A program made the position numbers and the translations under genes. The notes under the pieces were generated by a model, which saw only the letters and a list, made by a program, of their open reading frames with translations, was not told where the DNA came from and did no database searches. Below, in pieces: positions 15,237 to 36,771 of a DNA stretch of 38,186 bases. Where the stretch lies: assembly GCA_016929775.1 (NCBI GenBank), contig JAFGIE010000174.1:1-38186 (forward strand), given 5' to 3'. The DNA comes from Anaerolineae bacterium (GTDB lineage: Bacteria > Chloroflexota > Anaerolineae > JAFGEY01). Numbering within the stretch: the stretch's first letter is position 1; every line of letters starts with the position of its first letter.

Positions 15237-15662
15237 CTAGCTCTCCGTGTCTCTCATCCGGTCGAGGTAGCTCTGGAGGATCAGGGCTGCCGCCACCTGG
15301 TCGACGCGCCCCCGGACCGCGGCGCCGCTCCCTATCTCCGCCAGCGCCCGTTGCGCGGCATCGGTGGACAAGCGTTCATCCCACAGCACCACCTGGACGG
15401 ACAGACCCATCTCGTCCAGCGCCTGCTCGAGCAGCGCGGCATACCGCGCCACCTTTTGCGCCTGGAAGCCCTGGCTCCCGTCCATGTTCAGCGGCAGGCC
15501 AACCACGACCGTGTCGACGCCGTGCTGGCGCACCAGCTGACCAATCGCCTCGAAATCCTGCACCTTGGAGCGGCGGCGCAGCGTCGCGAGGGGACGCGCC
15601 AACACCTCGCCGATCGCGACGCCTGTGCGTTTCTCGCCGATGTCAAGAGCCAGGCAGTACAA
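15237..15662 (-). CDS. ruvX: Holliday junction resolvase-like RuvX/YqgF
   Basis: A 141-residue RNase H-like nuclease. Asp7 in ALDIGEKRTG is the first metal ligand, VVGLPLNMDGSQG is the central family motif, and DERLST and the Asp of VDQVAA complete the site. The role is Holliday-junction resolution and/or 16S rRNA 5'-end maturation. The start overlaps the preceding gene by 20 bases, and the stop lies 2 bp before mltG, so translation is probably coupled. The length is normal for the family. Confidence 0.95.
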   Translation of the reverse strand: MYCLALDIGEKRTGVAIGEVLARPLATLRRRSKVQDFEAIGQLVRQHGVDTVVVGLPLNMDGSQGFQAQKVARYAALLEQALDEMGLSVQVVLWDERLSTDAAQRALAEIGSGAAVRGRVDQVAAALILQSYLDRMRDTES

Positions 15663-17151
15663 GAGCGGTCTTCTCCGCGTCCTCTTTGACCACTGCGATC
15701 CGGAACGGCATCCAGGGCACGCGTTTCATCCACGTCGGCTTGACCAGGAGCGCGGGCTCGCTCTCTGCTGGCAGCGTATCGCGCAGGTACGCTGCCGCCG
15801 CCTCGATCGGCTTGCCGCGTATCGCTTCCTGGATCAGGGGGATGTCCAGATCGGCCTCCATCAGCGCGACGCCGTCCATCGTGAACCGAACGTTGCCGGT
15901 ATCCGGTTCGACCTCCCACAGACCACCCAGCGAGATCTGGACCGTGTCCGGCAGGAGATGGAATCCACTCCGCACCTGCCGGGTTAGGGCCCGGTAGGTG
16001 ATCTCTTTGGCCAACTCTTCCGACAGTGCCAGTCCCCACACCACGCCGCGCATCTCGAGCGCAAGGGTATCCGACTGCTCGTCCACGTGGCGGTCAAAGT
16101 TGGTCCGGATCGAGTACGGGTTGACCTGCATAGTCTCGATCGGCAGGAACTCGCCTTCCAGCAGCGCGCTGATCTCGGCATGCGCCTTGCGGACCAACTG
16201 CTCGGTCAGCAGGTCGGTGAGCGTCTGCTTGTCGCCATGTGTGACCCGGTGCACCTGGTCTGATGTGCCGCCATAGGTGCCCGACTCGTTCGTCACCTTG
16301 AGGCTCGCCGCCAGCCCACCCTCCACGCGATTGATCCGGTTGGCGGGCACGTTGCCGCCCGGTCCCCCCTCGAGAGCCTCGATCGGTACCCGCACGCGCC
16401 CGCGTGCGGCGACGACCGCCAGCTCCGTCGTCCGGAACCGCACCGGCGTCCCTGCGGAGGTGGAGACGATGGTATCGACCGGGATCCGCATCTCGCGAGC
16501 AGTCGCGTTCACAAAGAGCACGCTTCCCGTCGCCTTTTCTGCGGGAACGTTCGCGATCCCAGTCGTCGCGATCTCGCCCCGATCGACGACTTCGACCTGC
16601 ACCACCCGCGCAGGCATGACCATCTGGTCCCAGGCGACCGCCCGGACGCCCATGCTGGCTTCGACCCACACGGAGACGCCGATCGGCTCGCGCGCCTGCG
16701 TCACGCGCACCGTCGCGCTGGGCACGATCATCACTGCGCTCCAAGCCAGCACAGCCAGCACCAGCGTCACGACGATCGGGCCAACGACCCAGTACCACCA
16801 ACGGTGCGCACGCTGCGTCAACCGGGCGACCAGGCCCTCGAAGCCTGGCTTGTCCACCGTACGCCAACGCGCGCGCCGCCGCGCCAACCGCCGTCCGATC
16901 GCAAGCGAGGGAAGGACCACGATCCCTTCCTCTGACGCCAGGTCCGTCAGCCCGGCGCTGCCTGACACGAGCGCGATGCTCTGGCCCAGCGCCGCCGCCT
17001 GTCTGCGCAGCAGGCGCAGGTCCAGCGCACGCTCGAACGCCTTGCAGCCCGCTGGGACGACCAGCAACACGCTGCGCGACTGGGCGCGCCGCATCCGATC
17101 GCGAACCACTAGGATGTCGTCGTCTACTTCGAGATAGATGATCTGTTCCAT
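15643..17151 (-). CDS. Single-pass membrane protein, 'baseplate J/gp47-like' family
   Basis: A 502-residue protein. Residues 1-115 form a soluble alpha/beta domain (starts IIYLEVDDDILVV, with LLVVPAGCKAFER and a basic end RRLARRRARWR). A membrane segment lies at about 125-150 (WVVGPIVVTLVLAVLAWSAVMI). The rest is beta-rich and presumably external, including GTPVRFRTTE and NVPANRI, motifs that cause automatic 'baseplate J' labels. No phage genes are nearby. The start codon overlaps the stop of the actin-like gene as TGATG, which implies coupling. The pairing resembles PilM with a PilN-like partner: an actin-fold cytoplasmic protein plus a one-pass membrane protein with a short cytoplasmic N-domain. 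The function is not established; an envelope role is inferred. Confidence 0.75.
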   Translation of the reverse strand: MEQIIYLEVDDDILVVRDRMRRAQSRSVLLVVPAGCKAFERALDLRLLRRQAAALGQSIALVSGSAGLTDLASEEGIVVLPSLAIGRRLARRRARWRTVDKPGFEGLVARLTQRAHRWWYWVVGPIVVTLVLAVLAWSAVMIVPSATVRVTQAREPIGVSVWVEASMGVRAVAWDQMVMPARVVQVEVVDRGEIATTGIANVPAEKATGSVLFVNATAREMRIPVDTIVSTSAGTPVRFRTTELAVVAARGRVRVPIEALEGGPGGNVPANRINRVEGGLAASLKVTNESGTYGGTSDQVHRVTHGDKQTLTDLLTEQLVRKAHAEISALLEGEFLPIETMQVNPYSIRTNFDRHVDEQSDTLALEMRGVVWGLALSEELAKEITYRALTRQVRSGFHLLPDTVQISLGGLWEVEPDTGNVRFTMDGVALMEADLDIPLIQEAIRGKPIEAAAAYLRDTLPAESEPALLVKPTWMKRVPWMPFRIAVVKEDAEKTALVLPGS

Positions 17152-18395
17152 CACAACTCTGTCCCGATCGGCACGCTCGAACGCAGCACGCCATCGAACG
17201 TGCTCGGTCCTCGCTCGTGAAGGGGCCACGCCGCCAACGAAACCGACGCCACGCCCCCTGGCGACCATCGCTGGGCGGTCCGATCCACAACCTGACCCAG
17301 GTTCGAGCCGTCCCAGGCACGCACCGTCGGGATACGCGGCAGCGGCAGTAGGTCGAGCCAGCGCGCAGATGCCACCAATCGTTGCAGGTCCCCCAGGGCG
17401 CTCCCGCCTCCACAGAGGTAGATCTCGGGAAGCCAATCTCTGGGCGGGACATCCCACGACCGCAGCACCTCGATCACCGACGAGAACCAGCCTGTCAACG
17501 GCGTCCCAAGTGCCTTGTGCACCGCCTCGGCTTGGTCCGTACGCAGCCGCCCCGCGGCATACGCACGGAGCACCTGCTCCGCACGCGGGGGAGCGAGATC
17601 AAAGGTCGTCGCCAGCGCCTCCGACAGCAGCGCCCCGCCCGCCTGGACGCTGCCCAGCGCAAGTGGCCTACCGACGCGCAGCAGCGCCAGGCTCGTCGTC
17701 CGTGCACCAACCTCGATCAGCAGCCCGTCCCCCGCGAACGCGGCACACAGCGCCAGGGGCGCCGGGACGAGGAGGGGGGGATCGAGCTTGAGTGCGTCCA
17801 TGATCCCGCGCAGCGACGCGAGCGGCGCCGCCGGGGCTGCGAACACCGTCGCCGTAACCTCTAGGGCATGGCCCCGAAAGCCCACCGGGTCCGTGACGCG
17901 GTTCCCGTTCAGGCGGATGTCCGACACGGTCGCATCGACAAGCTCTACGCGACCGCCGATCGCATCGTGCGGCAGCAGCCGCACCGCCCGCTCACCAGCC
18001 CCGGCCAGCACGGCGGCACACTCTTCAGCGGTCAGCGGCTCCTCCAGGCGTGGTCGGCGCACAGCCATCGTCGCCGACGCGGTCTTGAGCCACGCCGGCG
18101 GTATGCCAACCAGCACCGTGTCGGGCACGACCTTGCCCCCTGCGACCGCCTCTGTCCCATCTTCAGCTGCCGTCAGGGCCCGCTCGCACGCCATTCGCAG
18201 AGCCGCGGGATCGCCGATCGACCCGTCCCGCCGCATCCCGGGGCCACACTCTGCCTGCCCACGACCGACGATCGCCGCCTGCGCCCCCTGCCGCTCTACT
18301 ACCAGGGCCTTCACCGCAGAGGCGCCCAGGTCGAGCACGCTGTAGTGCCCGGCTTGGTGTAGACGAGGTCTCCGCTTCCACCACTGGACGTGCAT
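17151..18395 (-). CDS. PilM/FtsA-like actin-fold ATPase
   Basis: A 414-residue protein of the actin/HSP70 ATPase superfamily. YSVLDLGASAVKALVV near residue 18 is the phosphate-1 loop, GLLIEVGARTTSLALL is the phosphate-2 loop, and IYLCGGGSALGDL is the adenosine motif. An SHS2-like insert (roughly 95-200) is expected for PilM/FtsA. No other type IV pilus genes are in view, so it is PilM-like only in fold. Its ATG overlaps the alaS stop as TGATG, and its stop overlaps the next start in the same way. It probably works with the downstream membrane protein at the envelope. Confidence 0.8.
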   Translation of the reverse strand: MHVQWWKRRPRLHQAGHYSVLDLGASAVKALVVERQGAQAAIVGRGQAECGPGMRRDGSIGDPAALRMACERALTAAEDGTEAVAGGKVVPDTVLVGIPPAWLKTASATMAVRRPRLEEPLTAEECAAVLAGAGERAVRLLPHDAIGGRVELVDATVSDIRLNGNRVTDPVGFRGHALEVTATVFAAPAAPLASLRGIMDALKLDPPLLVPAPLALCAAFAGDGLLIEVGARTTSLALLRVGRPLALGSVQAGGALLSEALATTFDLAPPRAEQVLRAYAAGRLRTDQAEAVHKALGTPLTGWFSSVIEVLRSWDVPPRDWLPEIYLCGGGSALGDLQRLVASARWLDLLPLPRIPTVRAWDGSNLGQVVDRTAQRWSPGGVASVSLAAWPLHERGPSTFDGVLRSSVPIGTEL

Positions 18396-22678: not shown

Positions 22679-22701
22679 GCGCCGCCGCCAAGCTGCGGCG
22701 C
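22679..22701 (+). other. Stem-loop before the C-GCAxxG-C-C gene
   Basis: GCGCCGC (22679-22685) and GCGGCGC (22695-22701) form a 7-bp stem with a 9-base loop, seven bases before the GAGGAGG ribosome site. There is no T tract, so it is a poor terminator. It might protect or separate the two messages. GC-rich hairpins of this size are common by chance. Confidence 0.35.
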
Positions 22702-22720
22702 CACATCGAGGAGGAAGACC

Positions 22721-23170
22721 ATGCACATCGAGTCGGCAGACATCGACCGCGTTGCGGCTGCAGCCCGCGCCCTGCTCGAGCGTGGGCACCATTGATCGGA
22801 AGCCATACTGCTCGCCGTGGGCGAGCACGTGCTCGATCCGTTTCCTGACGTCTGTCGCCGCATCGGGACCGGCTTCTCAGGGGGCCTGGGCGGCACGCAC
22901 CAAGAGCTGTGCGGCGCGCTCTCCGGGGGCGTGATCGTCACCAGCGCGCTGCTCGGGCGCAGCAACCTGTCCGGCGACGACCACCCGGCAATGAACGTCG
23001 CCACGCTGTACTGGGCCCGCTTTGTCGCGCGCTATGGGGATGCCAGGTGTGCGCCCGTGCGCGAGCGCGTGCACGCCGAAGGGGGCCTGGGCTCGTGCGG
23101 CGCGCTCGTCGAGGAGGCGACCAAGACCCTGCTCGAGATCCTGAACGAGATGCCCTACCCGGCGCCCTGA
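22721..23170 (+). CDS. C-GCAxxG-C-C family redox protein, probable selenoprotein (UGA = Sec25)
   Basis: Starting at the ATG with GAGGAGG eight bases upstream, the frame runs 24 codons, meets TGA (22793-22795), then continues open for 124 codons to the TGA at 23168-23170. The part after the first TGA is plainly this redox family: GTGFSGGLGG, Cys64-Gly-Ala-Leu-Ser-Gly69, Cys110 and Cys126. The residues around the TGA (RGHH-TGA-SEAILLAVGE) match the place where members have the first conserved Cys (usually G-x-N/S-C-A/S-x-A-V). The UGA therefore probably encodes selenocysteine, giving 149 residues. An 8-bp stem with a GUG loop follows at SECIS distance. I recall selenocysteine-containing members of this family, but could not check. 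Annotators would otherwise call a short fragment from the GTG at 22817. It lies between sulfatase and ABC-F genes. Confidence 0.8.
22793..22827 (+). promoter_or_regulatory. Candidate bacterial SECIS element
   Basis: TGCTCGCC (22809-22816) and GGCGAGCA (22820-22827) form a perfect 8-bp stem with the three-base loop GTG. The stem begins 13 bases, and the loop 21 bases, after the in-frame TGA at 22793-22795. As I recall, bacterial SECIS elements have a small apical loop with a G in its first two positions about 16-37 bases after the UGA, and this one fits. It lies within coding sequence, as bacterial SECIS elements do. Confidence 0.7.
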
Positions 23171-23232
23171 GCCCGCCCGTACACCCGCACCGCGAGCCCA
23201 TTTGACGCCGCAGCAGCACGTGAGGAACACCA

Positions 23233-27089: not shown

Positions 27090-27096
27090 AAGTGCA

Positions 27097-27170
27097 GGAT
27101 GACCTCACCGGGGGCGATGATGTGGCCCGGAGACAGCCCGCCTCCGCTTGTCCGGTGAGGCGGGTCTTTG
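27097..27170 (+). promoter_or_regulatory. Attenuator-like leader of hsdM with alternative hairpins
   Basis: CCCGCCTC (27137-27144) pairs with GAGGCGGG (27157-27164), followed by the T-rich TCTTTGCTTCT, a terminator form. Alternatively CCTCACCGG (27103-27111) pairs with CCGGTGAGG (27152-27160). The two structures share 27157-27160 and exclude each other. A 19-codon frame (ATG 27099, TGA 27156-27158) runs through the element with three Pro codons (27138-27146) on the terminator's 5' arm; it lacks a clear ribosome site, but could be read leaderless. Confidence 0.5.
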
Positions 27171-27208
27171 CTTCTCCGCACCTTGATAGCCTACCGTACG
27201 AGGAACCT

Positions 27209-28840
27209 ATGCCCGCCAACAACAGCGAAATCGAGAAGAGACTCTGGGACGCCGCGGACGAGCTGCGCGCCAACTCCAGGCTCAAGGCCTCCGAATACTC
27301 TGTCCCCGTTTTGGGCCTGATCTTTCTCCGCTACGCCGATCACCGCTTCCAGGTCGCCGATGAGGCCCTCCGGGCTGAACGCGCTGAGGCATCCGGCGGC
27401 AGGCGGCAGCGACCCATCAGCAGGGCCGACTACCAGGCACGGGGCGTGCTCTATATCCCGGAGGAAGCCCGCTTTGCCAACCTAGTTGCGCTTCCCGAGG
27501 GTGAGAACATCGGGGCAAAGGTCAATGCCGCGATGCGGGCCATCGAGGACAAGAACCCCGCCCTGCGCGACGTCCTGCCCAAGACGTACAACCGGCTTGC
27601 CAACACGACGTTGGCCTCGCTCCTGCGCACGTTCAACGCGATCGAGATGGACGTCGAGGGCGACGTGTTCGGCAAGATATACGAGTACTTTCTCGGCAAG
27701 TTCGCGATGAGCGAGGGGCAGCGCGGAGGCGAGTTCTTTACCCCGACCTCCCTCGTCAGGCTGATCGTGGAGGTCATCGAGCCGTTCCACGGGCGCATCC
27801 TCGACCCAGCCTGTGGCTCGGGCGGGATGTTTGTCCAGAGCGCGGCCTTTGTCCAGCGCCATCGCGACCGAGAGGACGACGGGATCAGCATCTTTGGTCA
27901 GGAGCGCGTGGCTGAGACGGTGCGCCTGTGCAAGATGAACCTCGCCGTCCACGGGCTGGAAGGCGACATCCGGCAGGCCAATACCTACTATGAGGAGCTG
28001 TACAAGAGCGTTGGCGGCTTTGACTATGTGATGGCTAACCCACCGTTCAACGTGAACCGGATCGACAAGGACCGCATCAAGGATGACCCGCGCTTCCCCT
28101 TTGGCCTGCCCACCGTCGACAACGGCAACTATGTCTGGATACAGATCTTCTACAGTGCGCTGAACGAGACGGGGCGAGCCGGCTTCGTGATGGCCAACTC
28201 GGCGGCGGACGCCCGCGGCTCTGAGCTAGAGATTCGCAAGAAGCTGATCCAGTCGGGGGCGGTGGACGTGATGGTGTCCATCGGCTCGAACTTTTTCTAC
28301 ACCGTGACGCTGCCCTGCACGCTGTGGTTTCTCGACCGGGGAAAGGCGCAGGCCTCCGCTGCCGGAACGCCAGAGCGTGGTTCAGGCGAGCAGCTCGCCC
28401 TGCCAGGCACTGGCGCGCGGAACAGGGACACGGTGCTGTTCGTCGACGCCAGGCGCGTCTACACCCAGATCGACCGCGCACATCGCGAGTTTGCGCCCGC
28501 GCAGATCGAGTTCCTGGCCAACATCGCGCGCCTCTACCGCGGCGAACTGCCCGAGACAGTGCAGGGCAGCGAAGCGCTGATGGCAGAGCGCTTCCCGGAT
28601 GGTAGCTACCAGGACATAGCTGGGCTGTGCAAGGTCGCCACGCTGGACGACATCGAGGCCCAGGGCTGGAGCCTGAACCCTGGGCGCTACGTGGGTGTGG
28701 CGGATCGAGAGGAAGACGATTTTGACTTTGTGGAGCGCCTGACCGAGCTGCACGAGGAGCTGGAGCTGCTCAACGCGGAAGCGCACGAGCTGGAAGCGCT
28801 GATAGCTCAGAGTATTGCAGCGCTGTTGGGGGAGCGCTGA
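27209..28840 (+). CDS. hsdM: Type I restriction-modification methyltransferase subunit HsdM
   Basis: A 543-residue N6-adenine methyltransferase. The N-terminal helical domain ([38 protein letters not shown]) is followed by the Rossmann methylase domain, with the S-adenosylmethionine motif Asp199-PACGSGGMF and the catalytic Asn277-Pro-Pro-Phe. It methylates host DNA within a complex of two HsdM and one HsdS. I chose the ATG at 27209 with GAGGA seven bases upstream; the frame is open further back, but only through the leader. It is first of hsdM-hsdS-hsdR, one base before hsdS. Confidence 0.96.
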
Positions 28841-28841
28841 G

Positions 28842-30044
28842 ATGCTCCAAGTGAACGGTCAATGGCACGAGACTACCCTGGGCGAGGTGATCGAGATTCA
28901 CGATCGAAGGCGCATTCCGCTAAGCTCTAGGGAGAGGGCAGAGCGACCGGGTCGGTACCCGTACTACGGTGCCTCCGGGATCATCGACCACATTGACGAC
29001 TACATCTTCGACGGCAGATACTTGCTGATTGCCGAGGATGGGGAAAACCTCAATAGCAGGAAGACGCCGATTGCCTTTCTTGCCTCGGGGAAGTTCTGGG
29101 TGAACAACCACGCCCACATTGTGAGAGCGCGACCAGGGATTGCAGACGACTACTTTCTTATGTGCTACCTTGAGGCATCCGACGTTTCCGGGTACATCAC
29201 CGGGACAGCACAGCCAAAACTCTCACAGACCAATCTGAAGGCAATCCCGATTCGACTTCCTCCCCTCCCCATCCAACGCAAGATCGCGGCGATCCTCTCC
29301 GCCTACGACGACCTGATCGAGAACAACACGCGGCGCATCGCCATCCTGGAAGAGATGGCGCAGGCAATCTACCGTGAGTGGTTCGTACACTTTCGGTTTC
29401 CCGGACACGAGAACGTCGAGATGGTGGACTCGGAGCTGGGGCCGATTCCGGAGGGATGGAGACTGGAGAACCTGTACGATGTTAGTGAGGTGCTTACTGG
29501 CTATCCGTTCAAGTCGCGGCGGTTTACGGAAGGGCCTGAAGGAATGCCGGTCATCCGCATTCGGGACATCGCAGGGCAAGCCAGTCAGACGCACACGGGG
29601 GAGCAAGCCCCTGACAAGTATATCGTGACGAACGGCGACATACTTGTGGGCATGGATGGCGACTTTCACATGTGCGAGTGGGCCGGCGGCAAAGCGTATC
29701 TGAATCAGCGAGTGGCGAGGGTTCGCCCCAAGGCACCCATACCTTGGCACTACTTGTTCCAGGCTCTCCGAGAGCCGATCGAATACTTCAACTCGACGAT
29801 CACGGGGACCACGGTGGCTCACCTGGGCAAGAAGCACTTGGTCACGATCAACATCCTGGTCCCTGACGAGCGGATGATGGAGCGGGCAAGGCAGACGTTG
29901 GAGCCGGTGCGGGAGCTGGTGCTGGGTCTTCGGTTGCAGAGTCGTGTTCTCTCTAGGACTCGTGATCTGTTGCTGCCTCGCCTTGTCTCTGGCGAGATCG
30001 ACCTGTCAGATCCGGATATCGACCCAGGGGAACTAGAGGTGTGA
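28842..30044 (+). CDS. hsdS: Type I restriction-modification specificity subunit HsdS
   Basis: A 400-residue DNA-recognition subunit with two target-recognition domains (about 5-135 and 205-345), each ending in a conserved helical repeat (PLPIQRKIAAILSAYDDLIENNTRRIAILEEMAQAIYREWF near 140-185, and the C-terminal RTRDLLLPRLVSGEI). Each domain reads one half of a bipartite site; the target cannot be read from sequence. Its two halves differ strongly, so an asymmetric target is expected. The ATG lies one base after the hsdM stop with GGGGGAG upstream, and its stop overlaps the hsdR start as TGATG. No inverted repeats or extra partial hsdS genes for phase-variable shuffling are seen. Confidence 0.95.
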   Translation: MLQVNGQWHETTLGEVIEIHDRRRIPLSSRERAERPGRYPYYGASGIIDHIDDYIFDGRYLLIAEDGENLNSRKTPIAFLASGKFWVNNHAHIVRARPGIADDYFLMCYLEASDVSGYITGTAQPKLSQTNLKAIPIRLPPLPIQRKIAAILSAYDDLIENNTRRIAILEEMAQAIYREWFVHFRFPGHENVEMVDSELGPIPEGWRLENLYDVSEVLTGYPFKSRRFTEGPEGMPVIRIRDIAGQASQTHTGEQAPDKYIVTNGDILVGMDGDFHMCEWAGGKAYLNQRVARVRPKAPIPWHYLFQALREPIEYFNSTITGTTVAHLGKKHLVTINILVPDERMMERARQTLEPVRELVLGLRLQSRVLSRTRDLLLPRLVSGEIDLSDPDIDPGELEV

Positions 30045-33000
30045 TGCCCGCCAACCCCGACACCGAAGGCAAACTCGAAGCTGCGACCATGGCCCTGTTC
30101 TCCCAGCTAGGCTGGGAGACGGTCAACGCCTACCACGAGACATACGGGCCGAGTGGTACACTGGGCCGGGAGACGCGCAGTGACGTGGTCCTGCTCTCCC
30201 GCCTTGAGGCGGCACTCTCGCGGCTCAACCCGGACCTGCCACCCGAGACTCACGCGCAGGTAGTCGAAGAGCTGACCCGCGATCGCAGTGCGATGTCCCT
30301 CGCCGTCGCCAACCGCGAGGTGTATGCCCTCCTCAAAGACGGCGTCCGCGTCACCTATCGTGACCCGGATGGTGAGGAACGCGTCGAGACGGCGCGCCTG
30401 ATCGACTGGCGCAGTCCCGAAAAAAACGACTTTCTGATCGTCCAGCAGTTCTGGGTGACCGGCGAGGTCTACACCCGACGGGCTGACCTGGTCGGCTTTG
30501 TCAACGGCATCCCGCTCCTCTTTGGCGAACTCAAGGCCCATCACAGGCGTGTCGAGGACGCCTATCGCAAGAACCTCGCCGACTACAAGGACACCATCCC
30601 TCACCTGCTCTGGTTCAACGCCTTCATCGTCCTCTCCAACGGCAGCGACGCCCGCATCGGCACGATCACGTCTCCCTGGGCCTACTTTTCCGAGTGGAAA
30701 AAGATCGACGACGAGGGCGAGACGGGCGTGATCTCGCTGGAGACGGCGGTGCGCGGCACGTGCGAGCCGGCGCGCTTTCTGGACATCGTCGAGAACTTTG
30801 TCCTGTACCAGGAGTCGCGCGGCGGGCTGAACAAGGTCGTGTGTATGAACCACCAGTACCTGGGCGTCAACAATGCCATCGACGCCGTGCGCGAGATCCG
30901 CGAGAACCAGGGCCGGCTGGGCGTGTTCTGGCACACCCAGGGCAGCGGCAAGTCGTTCTCGATGGTCTTCTTTTCGCAAAAGGTGCTGCGCAGAGTCCCC
31001 GGCAACTGGACGTTCGTGATCATTACCGACCGCATCGACCTCGACGACCAGATCTACAAGAACTTTGCGCGGTGCGGCGCCGTGATCGAGTCGGAGAATC
31101 GCGTCCGCGCCCAGAGCGGTGAGCATCTCCAACAGCTCCTGCGCGAGGACCACCGCTATGTGTTCACCCTGATCCAAAAGTTCGGCACCAAGGGAGGCGA
31201 GCGCTATCCCCTGCTCTCGGAACGAGACGACATCATTGTCATCACCGACGAAGCGCACCGCAGCCAGTATGACGTGCTGGCGATGAATATGCGCGATGCA
31301 ATGCCCAATGCCGCCTTCCTGGCCTTCACCGCCACCCCGCTCATCGTCGGCGAGGAGCGCACGCGCCAGGTCTTTGGCGACTATGTCAGCGTTTACTCCT
31401 ACAAGCAGTCCAACGAGGATGGCTCGACCGTTCCCCTCTACTATGAGAACCGCATCCCCGAGATGGAGCTGACCAACGAGCATCTGAACGAGGATATGGA
31501 CCGCCTGCTCGAAGAGGCCGAGCTGGACGAGGATCAAGAAGACGCCCTGGCCCGCCAGTTCGCGCACGAGTATCACCTGATCACCCGCGACGACCGGCTT
31601 GAGCGGGTCGCCCAGGATATCGCCGTCCACTTTGTGAACCGGGGGTACCTGGGGAAGGGGATGGTCATCTCGATCGACAAGCTGACCACCGTGCGGATGT
31701 ACGACAAGGTGCAGCGGCACTGGCAGCGCTTGCTATCCGAGGAACGGCGCAGGTTGGCGAGTGCGCCCGACGAGGAGCGCGACGCGATCCAGGCCAAGAT
31801 CGACTTTATGGCGTCCACCGATATGGCGGTCGTCCTCTCCTCCGAGCAGGGCGAAGTAGCAAAGTTCGCGGAGAAAGGCTTGGACATCCTCCCCCATCGC
31901 AAGCGGATGAACAGCGAAGCGCTCGACGAAAAGTTCAAAGACCCCGATGACCCCTTCCGGTTGGTCTTTGTCTGTGCGATGTGGCGCACGGGCTTTGACG
32001 CGCCGGCTTGCTCGACGATCTATCTCGACCGCCCGATGCGCAACCACACCCTGATGCAGACCATCGCCCGGGCCAACCGTGTGTTTGGCCAAAAAAACAA
32101 CGGGCTGATCGCGGACTATGTCGGCATCTTTCGCGACCTGCAAAAGGCCCTGGCGATATACGGCAGCGGCGTTGCGGGCGGCTTGCAGCCTGGGGAATCG
32201 CCGGTTGCACCGAAGGAGGAGCTGATCGAGCACCTGCAGAAAGCCATCCAGGATGCGTTGGCCTTCTGCACGGAGCGTGGCGTGGACCTCGATCCCATAG
32301 TGGGGAGCGAAGGGTACCAGCGGATCGCGCTGATGGACGACGCCGTAGAGCGGATCATCGTCAACGACGAGCTGAAGGACCAGTACCTGGCGCTTGCTGC
32401 CCAGGTGGACAAGCTGTTCAAGGCCATCCTGCCCGACACACGGGCCGGCGAGTTCGGCCCGGTGCGACACGTTCTCGTGGTCCTCGCAGAAAAGATCCGC
32501 AGCCTTGCACCAGAGGTGGACATCAGCGGCGTGATGGCACAGGTCGACGACCTGCTCGACGAATCCGTCACGGCGCGCGGATATGTCATCCGTGAGACGA
32601 GCAGGCTGTACGACCTGAGCAAGATCGACTTTGACGCGCTGCACGAGCGGTTCAGGCACGGGCGCAAGCGAACAGAGCTTGAAAAGCTGCGTAGCCTGCT
32701 CACCGTCAAGCTGCGGCGAATGGTGCGCCTCAACCCAAACCGGATGGACTTCCTCGAGGCGTTCCAGCGCTTGATTGAGGAATACAACATAGGGTCGCGC
32801 AACGTTGACGAGATGTACGAGGCCCTCATCCAGTTCGCGCAGTCGTTGGACGAGGAGGAGCAGCGTGCGGTCAGCGAGGGCCTAAGCGAGGAAGAACTGG
32901 CCCTCTTTGACATCCTGACTCGACCTGGACCTAGCCTGAGCGCCTCCGAGAAGCGCGAGGTCAAGCGCATCGCCCGCGAGCTATTGACCACACTCAAGGA

Positions 33001-33214
33001 GAGGAAGCTCACGCTCGACTGGCGCAAGCGGCAGCAGGCGCGTGCCTCGGTACAAGTCGCTATCCAGGACTTTATATGGGAGCTGCCCGAGGACCGCTAC
33101 ACCGACGAGATGTGTGGAGACAAGAGTGCGGCCGTCTACCAGCACGTCTATGACAACTACTGGGGCGCCGGGCAGAGCACGTACACCACTCTGTCTACTG
33201 GTTTGGCGGCCTAG
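30044..33214 (+). CDS. hsdR: Type I restriction endonuclease subunit HsdR
   Basis: A 1056-residue translocase-nuclease. The N-terminal PD-(D/E)xK nuclease has Asp148, Glu162 and Lys164 (FGELKAH). The SF2 helicase motor has Walker A GSGKS from 300 (Lys303), DEAH at 402-405, the TATPL motif III, and the RTGFDAP and RANRVFGQ motifs of the second RecA domain. A long helical C-terminus follows. It cuts unmodified DNA after ATP-driven translocation, in complex with HsdM and HsdS. The ATG at 30044 overlaps the hsdS stop; a GTG three bases earlier is possible but has poorer spacing. It appears full length and intact. Confidence 0.96.
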   Translation: MPANPDTEGKLEAATMALFSQLGWETVNAYHETYGPSGTLGRETRSDVVLLSRLEAALSRLNPDLPPETHAQVVEELTRDRSAMSLAVANREVYALLKDGVRVTYRDPDGEERVETARLIDWRSPEKNDFLIVQQFWVTGEVYTRRADLVGFVNGIPLLFGELKAHHRRVEDAYRKNLADYKDTIPHLLWFNAFIVLSNGSDARIGTITSPWAYFSEWKKIDDEGETGVISLETAVRGTCEPARFLDIVENFVLYQESRGGLNKVVCMNHQYLGVNNAIDAVREIRENQGRLGVFWHTQGSGKSFSMVFFSQKVLRRVPGNWTFVIITDRIDLDDQIYKNFARCGAVIESENRVRAQSGEHLQQLLREDHRYVFTLIQKFGTKGGERYPLLSERDDIIVITDEAHRSQYDVLAMNMRDAMPNAAFLAFTATPLIVGEERTRQVFGDYVSVYSYKQSNEDGSTVPLYYENRIPEMELTNEHLNEDMDRLLEEAELDEDQEDALARQFAHEYHLITRDDRLERVAQDIAVHFVNRGYLGKGMVISIDKLTTVRMYDKVQRHWQRLLSEERRRLASAPDEERDAIQAKIDFMASTDMAVVLSSEQGEVAKFAEKGLDILPHRKRMNSEALDEKFKDPDDPFRLVFVCAMWRTGFDAPACSTIYLDRPMRNHTLMQTIARANRVFGQKNNGLIADYVGIFRDLQKALAIYGSGVAGGLQPGESPVAPKEELIEHLQKAIQDALAFCTERGVDLDPIVGSEGYQRIALMDDAVERIIVNDELKDQYLALAAQVDKLFKAILPDTRAGEFGPVRHVLVVLAEKIRSLAPEVDISGVMAQVDDLLDESVTARGYVIRETSRLYDLSKIDFDALHERFRHGRKRTELEKLRSLLTVKLRRMVRLNPNRMDFLEAFQRLIEEYNIGSRNVDEMYEALIQFAQSLDEEEQRAVSEGLSEEELALFDILTRPGPSLSASEKREVKRIARELLTTLKERKLTLDWRKRQQARASVQVAIQDFIWELPEDRYTDEMCGDKSAAVYQHVYDNYWGAGQSTYTTLSTGLAA

Positions 33215-33952: not shown

Positions 33953-34209
33953 AGCGAGGCTGGCACCCGAGTGTGGACCGGCAGTGAGTCTCATGTGCAC
34001 GCACATCCCCTACCGGGACAAGGTGCACGCGGAAACGTCGCCCTCTAGAGAGAGGAAAAGGAGCGTGTAGCCGACCCAGAGCCGACCAGCTGCGCTGCAT
34101 TGCCAAAGCGATGATCGGCTTTCGTGCTATTGCCCTTCTTCCGATTCCACGCGTGAATCGCCATCGTGAGTACTGACCCTGTGCAGATGAACCGGAGCGC
34201 ATTCGAGTG
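33953..34209 (+). other. Gap before the NACHT gene
   Basis: I find no convincing promoter, terminator or small gene in these 257 bases. A TTGCCA at 34100 with a TATTGC 22 bases later is too widely spaced. Whether the NACHT gene has its own promoter remains open. Confidence 0.4.
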
Positions 34210-36771
34210 ATGACGTGCAAACCTCTCGTGACCGGAACATCTCATACACTACCCATTGACAGGTTGTCGCCAAGAGACTTTGAGCGGCTGTGCTTGTGGT
34301 TGGTGCAGCGAGAAGGATACGAACACGCCGAGCATCTGGGCGCTTCAGGCAACGAACAGGGCCGCGACATCATTGCTTGGAAGGACGGGCGCCTCTGGGC
34401 TTTCCAGTGCAAGCGCGTGCAGAGCTTCGGCCCGAGTGAGGCGACCAAGGAAGCCGACAAGGTCCTCGCACTTCCAGACGACCAGCGACCAGCAGGACTC
34501 GTCTACCTGGTGACCTCTGATGTCTCCGCGAACGCCCGCCAAGCCGTGCGTGATCACTGCGCGGAAAGCCTTGAGTGCGACTTCTGGGTGGGGACAGAGC
34601 TGGACGAGAAGATCAAGCACTATCCTGATATTGTGGCCGAGTTCTTCCAGATCGCCATCCCGCCCGCGCAGGGAAGCCTACGCGAGCTTGAGATAGCCTA
34701 TCTGGATGACCTCATCGAGCGCTACAGGTATTGGGAGCAACACTACACCCCGCTTGCTGGGATTGCGGAGGTCCGCGCCGCAGTGAGCGACGGCCTCCAC
34801 CTGGACCTGCCGATGCCCTTTGTGCCGCGCGGCTTCGAGATGCTGGCAAAGCACGGGTTCGGCGACCAGGTGGAGACGCGTCGTGTTCGAGTGAATGACC
34901 TGCGAGAGGCAATCGCTGAACACCGTCGCATCATTCTGCTCGGCGACCCTGGTAGCGGCAAGACGACGACTCTGTGGCGACTGGCGCTTGAGTATGCCCA
35001 GACAGCGCGGGAAGACCCAGATGCTCCGCTCCCCGTCTTTGTGCCGCTGGGCGGCTACAGTGATGAGCGTCCCCTACAGATGTACCTGGCGGAGTGCTTC
35101 TGGCCGCTTGGTCCGCGCATCGGGTCCTATCTCGCGTCTGGTCGGCTTGTCCTACTCCTTGATGGCCTCAACGAGATGCCGCAGCGAGGACGTTCTGAGC
35201 GCATTGACCGTATCACCCGTCTGCTGGAGAGCCACTTGGGCCTCTCTGTCATTGTCACGTGTCGGGTTTTGGACTTCCTCGGTGGGCTGGAGGAGCTGCA
35301 AAGGGTCCTAGTCGCCCCTCTCGACCCAACCCGCGTGCGAACCTTCCTGCATGGCTACCTGGGAGAGACAGCTGGGGAGCAGCTCTTCTGGACGCTCAGT
35401 GGCGATGGTAGGGTGAGCGAGCTGTGGCAGGTCTGGAAGGATGCAGGCGGGAGTCTCGAGCAGTTCTGGACATCCCACAGGATGCCTCAGTCCATATGGG
35501 ATGGCCTCACACATACGCAGAGGCGGCTGTGGCGGCAGTTCACCACAGATCCGCACCACCTGCTCACCCTCGCCGGGAACCCCTACGTGCTGCTGATGCT
35601 CGCCCAGGTATACGCGAGTGGCGGCGTACTGCCGGCGAACCGGGTCCGGCTGCTTGAGGTGTTCGTGGCTACACTGCTGGCACGAGAGAGGGCGCATTGC
35701 CAGGGGGCGTGGATTGCGGCCGAGACACAAGTAGAGGGCCTCTCGGCGTTGGCCCTTGCGATGCAACGCGAGAGCGGGCATGGTACAGCGGTTGACCGTG
35801 ACTGGGCAGTGGAACAGCTCAGGCTGGGCGTGCCGGAGTGCGATGCGGAGCGGCTGCTGTATCTGGCCAGTGGGGCGACGCTGGTGGATGCAGTTGGACC
35901 CAGAGTGCGGTTCCACCACCAAACGCTACAGGACTTCTTCTGCGCTTCTCGTCTTCATCGGTTGATGCTCGAGGATCAGGCGACCGTGGAAGGCCCACTG
36001 CCGATCGACGAGGCGATCCAGCTCTTTCTGAACGGCCTGTTCGCGCTGAAGCCGAAAGACGAGGAAGACCCGCCGTGCAAGGCACCCGCAGACACGACAT
36101 GGGTTCCGTCTGGCGAGTATATCCTGGGAGGCCCGATGGGAGCCGCTGCCCAGGTCGCCCGGCTTGAGAGAGGCTTCTTCTCGGCTGTGACGCCAGTGAC
36201 GAATGCTCAGTACACTCAGTTCATCAAGGGGGGTGGCTATGAGGACCGATCGTGCTGGGACGATGAGGGCTGGTCGTGGGTCCAGCAGGCACGGCAGAAG
36301 CAGCCTAACCATTGGTATGGCAGTTGGCGCGGCGAGCCGACGCAGCCAGTTGTAGGCGTAAGCTGGTACGAGGCAGTAGCATACTGCCGTTGGTTGGCGG
36401 ACAGGACGGGACTGGCCTACCGCTTGCCTGAGGAGGAGGAGTGGGAGAAAGCGGCACGAGGCTACGATGGGCGGGAATACCCCTGGGGCGCGTGGGCAGA
36501 GCGCCGGTGCAACATCCTGGAAGCTGGCTTCTATGAGCCGTCGCCCGTGGGCGAGTTCTCCCCAAACGGAGACAGCCCCTACGGCCTACAGGATGCGGCG
36601 GGCAACGTCTGGGAGTGGACCTCAAGCCAGCTGGATGAGCGTCGTGCGATCCGCGGAGGCTCGTTCCTCGACTTCAGAGGCGACGCCCGTTGCTCTTGCC
36701 GCAACGTAGCTTACCCAGGCAGCCGTGTGATGGATGTAGGCTTCCGGGTTGCATTCTCGCCAGACCCTTAG
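34210..36771 (+). CDS. Mrr-type nuclease/NACHT NTPase/FGE-fold fusion, probable anti-phage protein
   Basis: An 853-residue three-part protein. Residues about 15-130 are an Mrr-like restriction nuclease: Glu25, Asp53 (EQGRDI) and Gln66-x-Lys68 (FQCKR). Residues about 225-420 are a NACHT/STAND ATPase: Walker A GDPGSGKTT at 245-253, Walker B LLLDGLN near 315-321. A helical part with RFHHQTLQDFFCASRL follows. Residues from about 628 form a formylglycine-generating-enzyme/C-type-lectin-like fold (VVGVSWYEAVAYCRWLADRTG, RLPEEEEWEKAARG, NVWEWTSS, RGGSF, DVGFRV). The two Cu-binding Cys of true FGE read as Asp and a non-Cys residue, so this domain is probably a sensor. By analogy with Avs and bNACHT systems it would bind a phage trigger, oligomerise and cut DNA. 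The start may be the GTG at 34207. Confidence 0.88.
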   Translation: MTCKPLVTGTSHTLPIDRLSPRDFERLCLWLVQREGYEHAEHLGASGNEQGRDIIAWKDGRLWAFQCKRVQSFGPSEATKEADKVLALPDDQRPAGLVYLVTSDVSANARQAVRDHCAESLECDFWVGTELDEKIKHYPDIVAEFFQIAIPPAQGSLRELEIAYLDDLIERYRYWEQHYTPLAGIAEVRAAVSDGLHLDLPMPFVPRGFEMLAKHGFGDQVETRRVRVNDLREAIAEHRRIILLGDPGSGKTTTLWRLALEYAQTAREDPDAPLPVFVPLGGYSDERPLQMYLAECFWPLGPRIGSYLASGRLVLLLDGLNEMPQRGRSERIDRITRLLESHLGLSVIVTCRVLDFLGGLEELQRVLVAPLDPTRVRTFLHGYLGETAGEQLFWTLSGDGRVSELWQVWKDAGGSLEQFWTSHRMPQSIWDGLTHTQRRLWRQFTTDPHHLLTLAGNPYVLLMLAQVYASGGVLPANRVRLLEVFVATLLARERAHCQGAWIAAETQVEGLSALALAMQRESGHGTAVDRDWAVEQLRLGVPECDAERLLYLASGATLVDAVGPRVRFHHQTLQDFFCASRLHRLMLEDQATVEGPLPIDEAIQLFLNGLFALKPKDEEDPPCKAPADTTWVPSGEYILGGPMGAAAQVARLERGFFSAVTPVTNAQYTQFIKGGGYEDRSCWDDEGWSWVQQARQKQPNHWYGSWRGEPTQPVVGVSWYEAVAYCRWLADRTGLAYRLPEEEEWEKAARGYDGREYPWGAWAERRCNILEAGFYEPSPVGEFSPNGDSPYGLQDAAGNVWEWTSSQLDERRAIRGGSFLDFRGDARCSCRNVAYPGSRVMDVGFRVAFSPDP

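Follow-up and report, generated by a model that had tools for sequence, protein, structure and literature searches.

A very probable selenoprotein gene of the C-GCAxxG-C-C family in Anaerolineae-like Chloroflexota

C-GCAxxG-C-C proteins are catalogued as a selenoprotein family (PMC13188914, PMC9312934), for which PMC13188914 gives forms 1 and 2, citing Zhang and Gladyshev 2007 and 2008; NCBIfam names the family "(seleno)protein." In the passages concerned of the two catalogues, the examples comprise one accession each and the selenocysteine (Sec) residue is left unspecified. The main text of Zhang and Gladyshev 2008 was searched for the family name without a hit. A passage of PMC1794560 gives three selenoproteins for the Chloroflexi; the main texts of PMC13188914 and PMC9312934 contain no mention of Chloroflexi, and that of PMC13188914 none of Chloroflexota. 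Judged by titles and abstract openings in the open-access literature, no treatment of this Chloroflexota clade was found. Here, a gene of this family is described that lies at positions 22721–23170 (+) of a 38,186-nucleotide contig from an Anaerolineae bacterium (JAFGIE010000174.1; the whole stretch is referred to as the window). It is very probably a selenoprotein gene of Anaerolineae-like Chloroflexota with Sec at codon 25, because UGA and Cys alternate at this codon, a hairpin downstream of it is conserved, and sel genes are present in relatives. A first-pass annotation had implied that the selenoprotein was novel, which is overstated, as the family is already catalogued as such. New in this analysis are the Chloroflexota clade with its selenocysteine insertion sequence (SECIS), the repeated switching between Sec and Cys, the apparent truncation of database entries, and a tentative match to the split-Soret fold, which hints at an iron(-sulfur) centre.

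The HUGP/GUXX-star fusion selenoprotein (NF045501) is one named relative. A distant Chloroflexota paralogue (L042) matches positions 3–162 of 236 of this model with 284.3 bits, below the cut-off of 325, and contains a TGA in an H-TGA-G-P context that is aligned with codon 25 of the window gene. Hence, judging from the alignment, a HUGP-like relative with Sec at this position is probably known already. TGA is aligned to the same codon in the distant C-GCAxxG-C-C paralogues L031, L035, and L041 of Chloroflexota as well. The window protein is not a member of NF045501, as it reaches 26.6 bits against the cut-off of 325, is matched over residues 9–81 only, and has one TGA. Likewise, the DVU_1555 family C-GCAxxG-C-C protein (NF045669) is matched nearly over its full length (E 9e-11) with 41.6 bits at a cut-off of 103, and the window protein is not a member of this family either.

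The reading frame starts with ATG at 22721, runs through 24 sense codons to a TGA (22793–22795), and continues through 124 further sense codons to the TGA stop at 23168–23170. This layout, together with the AGGAGG ahead of the start, had been described in the first-pass annotation and is borne out by direct reading of the sequence; the other three family Cys residues (C64, C110, and C126) are intact in the read-through translation, as had been stated. The read-through protein scores above the curated cut-offs of both PF09719 (57.6 bits, cut-off 27) and TIGR01909 (50.8 bits, cut-off 47.4), the latter being matched by all 56 members of alignment A3 (E 1e-3). Among the 56 aligned sequences, U/C25, C64, C110, and C126 form invariant columns, and the CGAxxG motif reads CGALSG here (residues 64–69). 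The profiles and the invariant U/C column agree with the earlier assignment to this family with the TGA at its first conserved Cys. The longest conventional open reading frame (ORF) starts from GTG 22817, which is located in the apical loop of the putative SECIS, and loses 32 residues, so that the predicted loss of the N terminus in standard annotation holds as well. Within the window, TGA is used as an ordinary stop, ending 7 of the 12 genes looked at, with the selenoprotein candidate included; the other 11 genes have no internal TGA by construction, since they were taken from the ORF list. A search for promoter and terminator consensus sequences around the gene was negative.

The protein search yielded 253 homologues. 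The best 120 were listed, and these include the truncated entry of the window itself. Among the 119 others listed, 111 begin at window-protein residue 29–48, past the Sec site, and eight span the site, all with Cys there. These late starts match an apparent systematic truncation at the in-frame TGA, as far as the entries indicate; some short contigs may be incomplete. In the genome_contigs scan, codon 25 is TGA in all five Chloroflexota loci; no relatives were found in the viral_contigs scan. A sample of 396 genomes from the class of one scan locus yielded 55 matches in 53 genomes (E up to 1e-8). The aligned codon, read in all 55, is TGA in 42 (from 41 genomes) and TGT or TGC in 13, and hence the in-frame TGA at codon 25 is not chance. 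In one of these genomes (G509), a TGA form coexists with a Cys form (L062 and L093). In a phylum sample of 400 genomes, 24 had a total of 27 matches (E up to 1e-3); the 25 of these that are new to the count are distant paralogues, with TGA in four and Cys in 21. In total, 81 Chloroflexota loci were compared (55 from the class, 25 from the phylum, and L005, with four of the five scan loci coinciding with class matches), and they show 47 TGA, 34 Cys, and no other codon. A sense codon other than Cys had been named beforehand as a finding that would speak against Sec at this site.

For bacterial SECIS elements (bSECIS), the rule in the passage of PMC13188914 comprises a loop of 3–9 nt, a stem of 4–16 bp, a G in the first two loop positions, a distance of 16–37 nt after the UGA, and a minimum free energy of at most −7.5. 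The hairpin of the window fits this rule with its GUG loop, 8 bp, and 21 nt; its stem by itself has a minimum free energy of −13.2, and the extended hairpin one of −15.6. The rule of that passage was coded without the stem-length term. In this form, it is satisfied in all 42 distinct TGA-form sequences, the window among them (of 43, one that was identical over 60 nt was dropped), but also in 9 of the 13 Cys forms at some position. The lowest-energy hairpin under the coded rule is the one at 21 nt in 29 TGA forms out of 42 and in none of the 13 Cys forms. The coded rule by itself is thus weak proof, and the specific part of the evidence is positional.

The positional test covered 40 TGA-form sequences, including the window, and considered a stem that encloses a loop of three bases at exactly 21 nt past the UGA; the distant TGA paralogues L091 and L092, whose hairpins lie elsewhere, were excluded from it and from alignments A4 and A6. 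On average, 8.2 of 9 pairs are formed versus 6.21 when synonymous codons are redrawn (sd 0.16; maximum of 2000 shuffles 6.8; z 12), and a perfect 7-bp stem is present in 30 of the 40 versus 1.6 expected. The loop follows the pattern GUN (GTG in 30, GTC in seven, GTT in two, and GTA in one). The 13 Cys forms have 4.85 pairs versus 4.52 under the null (z 1.2) and no perfect stem. In alignment A4, 96.3% of the cells are paired, four of eight pairs show changes on both sides (a number attained in 1 of 500 shuffles), and covariation is 0.235 versus 0.143 in shuffles (reached by none of 500), whereby the hairpin sequences are related and the shuffle counts are thus not to be read as probabilities. 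Six slid controls are lower throughout (27.5–50.6% paired cells, covariation 0.022–0.086); the one slid by +3 still shows three pairs with changes on both sides. A covariance model was built from the 39 other sequences, leaving the window out, and was searched for in the window, in the 13 Cys loci, and in six distant TGA paralogues; its scores partly reflect shared coding sequence. Herein, the window element reaches 58.1 bits (E 5.5e-17). Among the Cys forms, L068 scores best with 25.2 bits, and the distant TGA paralogues reach 23.1 bits (L031) or less, two being without a match. The tree neighbours of L068 include TGA forms; the matching stretch of L068 (1546–1584, about 25 bits) may be left over from a recent change from Sec to Cys or may just reflect shared coding sequence. 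An Rfam scan of the whole window found no SECIS family and nothing at gathering scores, and a scan of 22700–23200 gave two unrelated chance matches only (E 8.6 and 9.2). The SECIS check proposed in the first-pass annotation, carried out with the coded published rule and with pairing conservation, hence yields a conserved bacterial-type hairpin 21 nt past the UGA. The features of the locus are collected in Table 1.

Table 1. Features of the C-GCAxxG-C-C locus of the window
Feature	Position	Strand	Basis
Very probable selenoprotein gene, C-GCAxxG-C-C (PF09719) family, 149 residues, Sec at residue 25	22721..23170	+	frame reading, profile matches, homologues
Shine-Dalgarno sequence AGGAGG, 6 nt before ATG	22709..22714	+	direct sequence reading
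In-frame UGA, very probably Sec; codon 25, first family Cys	22793..22795	+	47 TGA/34 Cys in 81 homologous loci
Bacterial-type SECIS stem-loop, 8 bp stem, loop GUG (22817–22819), 21 nt after UGA	22809..22827	+	pairing tests, covariance model
Conventional ORF, GTG start inside the SECIS loop	22817..23170	+	longest conventional ORF; standard annotation would report it
Cys64 codon, CGALSG motif	22910..22912	+	invariant column, 56 aligned sequences
Cys110 codon	23048..23050	+	invariant column, 56 aligned sequences
Cys126 codon	23096..23098	+	invariant column, 56 aligned sequences

The selenocysteine machinery was compared between the 41 matched genomes with a TGA form (G509 counted among them) and the 12 Cys-only genomes. 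selA (E up to 1e-40) is present in 40 of 41 versus 7 of 12 (Fisher p 0.0015), selB (E up to 1e-60) in 37 versus 6 (p 0.005), selC (E up to 1e-9, stricter filters) in 33 versus 6 (p 0.06), and selD (E up to 1e-30) in 38 versus 8 (p 0.04), with tests that ignore kinship and genome completeness. All four genes are found in 26 TGA genomes, three in 14, and two in one, and four Cys-only genomes (G551, G627, G655, and G742) have none of them. Since selB is common across the class sample (313 of 396 genomes), the contrast between TGA and Cys-only genomes, rather than presence alone, carries weight. In many bacteria, SelD itself is a selenoprotein. Of the 46 genomes with SelD, Cys-only ones included, 45 show a single in-frame TGA somewhere in the SelD match. 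The single-contig 5.35 Mb chromosome of G004 contains selA, selC, and selD and no SelB above the cut-off; its stretch C1:135772–135897 matches just positions 1–43 of the SelB model, and selB may be broken in the assembly.

In the tree, which comprises 56 sequences, Cys forms are interspersed with Sec forms, and the TGA forms persist across long distances. Five state changes are needed, four of them forced by well-supported branches, a count as low as which occurs in none of 500 shuffles. The position of the window is weakly supported, as is its proximity to the Cys forms L047, L051, and L072, which come from genomes without any sel gene. The product of the neighbouring alaS gene has its best named match in P0124 from Anaerolineae (79% identity), and the ten nearest class-sample genomes by alanyl-tRNA synthetase have 63–66% identity. 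By these protein comparisons, the lineage of the window is Chloroflexota, outside the sampled genomes. None of the ten is among the 53 genomes with a gene match although selB is listed in nine of them, and the distribution of the gene is therefore patchy.

Several other explanations of the interrupted frame have to be weighed. A pseudogene or an assembly error, in which the TGA is a nonsense mutation or a miscalled Cys codon, would need just one base to differ from TGC or TGT, but 42 of the 55 class-sample matches, in 41 genomes, have TGA at this very codon, with a hairpin that is conserved in the TGA forms and lacking in the Cys forms, and the TGA forms span long tree distances and occur in genomes with sel genes; this explanation has a negligible probability, and the earlier judgment that a pseudogene was unlikely stands. 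A true start further downstream, such as GTG 22817, with non-coding sequence ahead of it, would accord with the shorter versions held by the databases. It is nonetheless very improbable, as the N-terminal stretch aligns with that of Cys homologues of full length (P0045 and P0048, for example), residues 5–20 form a confident helix in the predicted structure, AGGAGG and ATG are present at 22709–22723, the supposed GTG start sits in the hairpin loop, and the shortened form would lose an invariant residue. The open frame alone cannot tell which residue is inserted, and the UGA might be read as Trp, Cys, or Gly via a reassigned code or leaky suppression; very little probability is given to this either, because TGA terminates genes in the window, the site alternates with Cys alone, and the relatives have both the hairpin and the sel genes. 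The proposal of a likely selenoprotein made in the first-pass annotation is thus supported by a site that is TGA or Cys only and by the conserved hairpin, with sel genes found in the TGA-form relatives. For the window's own organism, we infer that UGA-25 is decoded as Sec: SelB with Sec-tRNA-Sec would bind the stem-loop 21 nt downstream and decode the UGA. The product would be a small redox or electron-transfer protein of 149 residues, in which Sec25 may be an extra reactive residue or a fourth ligand.

The role of the four invariant residues is a separate matter. The predicted structure, a high-confidence model, is all-helical, and Sec25, Cys64, Cys110, and Cys126 are each located at or just before the start of a helix. 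Its best fold match is split-Soret cytochrome c (1h21), an entry titled for a novel iron centre; Foldseek searches against the PDB and viral models gave no match at E at or below 0.001, and a PDB search with L037 gave chance matches only. In 1h21, Cys is retained at the positions corresponding to C64 and C126 and, judged from its spacing, to C110, whereas residues 46–50, opposite Sec25, include no Cys, and there is an extra Cys147. Furthermore, 1h21 is a c-type cytochrome, and the translation of the window protein contains no CXXCH haem-binding motif. Cys64, Cys110, and Cys126 may hence represent the part in common with the proposed non-haem iron site of the split-Soret cytochrome, which is much less sure than the selenoprotein assignment. 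It is a rather unlikely, tentative proposal that Sec25 acts as the selenolate ligand of an iron(-sulfur) centre together with these three Cys residues, in a free-standing homologue of the split-Soret iron domain whose lineages swap a Sec for a Cys ligand. An even chance is given to a selenoprotein whose four residues form a plain thiol/selenol-disulfide relay without any metal. This fits their location at helix starts, a family name that says only "putative redox-active," and the place in 1h21 opposite residue 25, which is not Cys; the novel iron centre named in the title of the best structural match and its retained Cys positions speak for a metal site instead.

Genomic context was compared across 20 TGA-form loci, and no gene family is common to more than three or four of their neighbourhoods when the longest ORFs are considered. 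Seven neighbour proteins of the window (alaS, sulfatase, ABC-F, GH127, YceG-like, Baseplate_J-like, and FtsA-like) matched one of these loci only (L096, ABC ATPase, 27–34%). There is thus no shared neighbourhood among these loci, and function is therefore not inferred from context. By sequence reading, with no family search made, a MobB-like or MBL-fold protein is common to small groups of TGA-form loci. For near metagenome relatives, the longest contigs of the alaS and C-GCAxxG entries are equal in size for four (27105, 17014, 13840, and 5641), which suggests that the two genes share a neighbourhood there. Elsewhere in the window, a type I restriction-modification operon (hsdM, hsdS, and hsdR) is located at 27092–33214 (+), followed shortly after at 34207–36771 (+) by a gene for an 854-residue protein with Mrr-like nuclease, NACHT, and FGE-sulfatase domains; this protein has weak PADLOC matches only and is possibly a defence NTPase. 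An ORF at 15643–17457 (−) has a weak Baseplate_J-like match (39 bits); next to it are a YceG-like gene and an ORF that matches FtsA below the threshold.

Mis-annotation of the gene seems to be the norm, as 111 of the 119 other listed homologues start after the Sec site and hence lack an invariant and probably reactive residue. The clade represents a natural experiment in Sec/Cys exchange, with at least four switches on the tree: hairpin pairing is kept in the Sec forms and is near the synonymous null in the Cys forms, and four of the 12 Cys-only genomes have none of the four sel genes. If the iron-ligand proposal were true, the protein would contain a naturally selenium-ligated iron centre, and the possible link to the split-Soret fold offers testable chemistry for this family.
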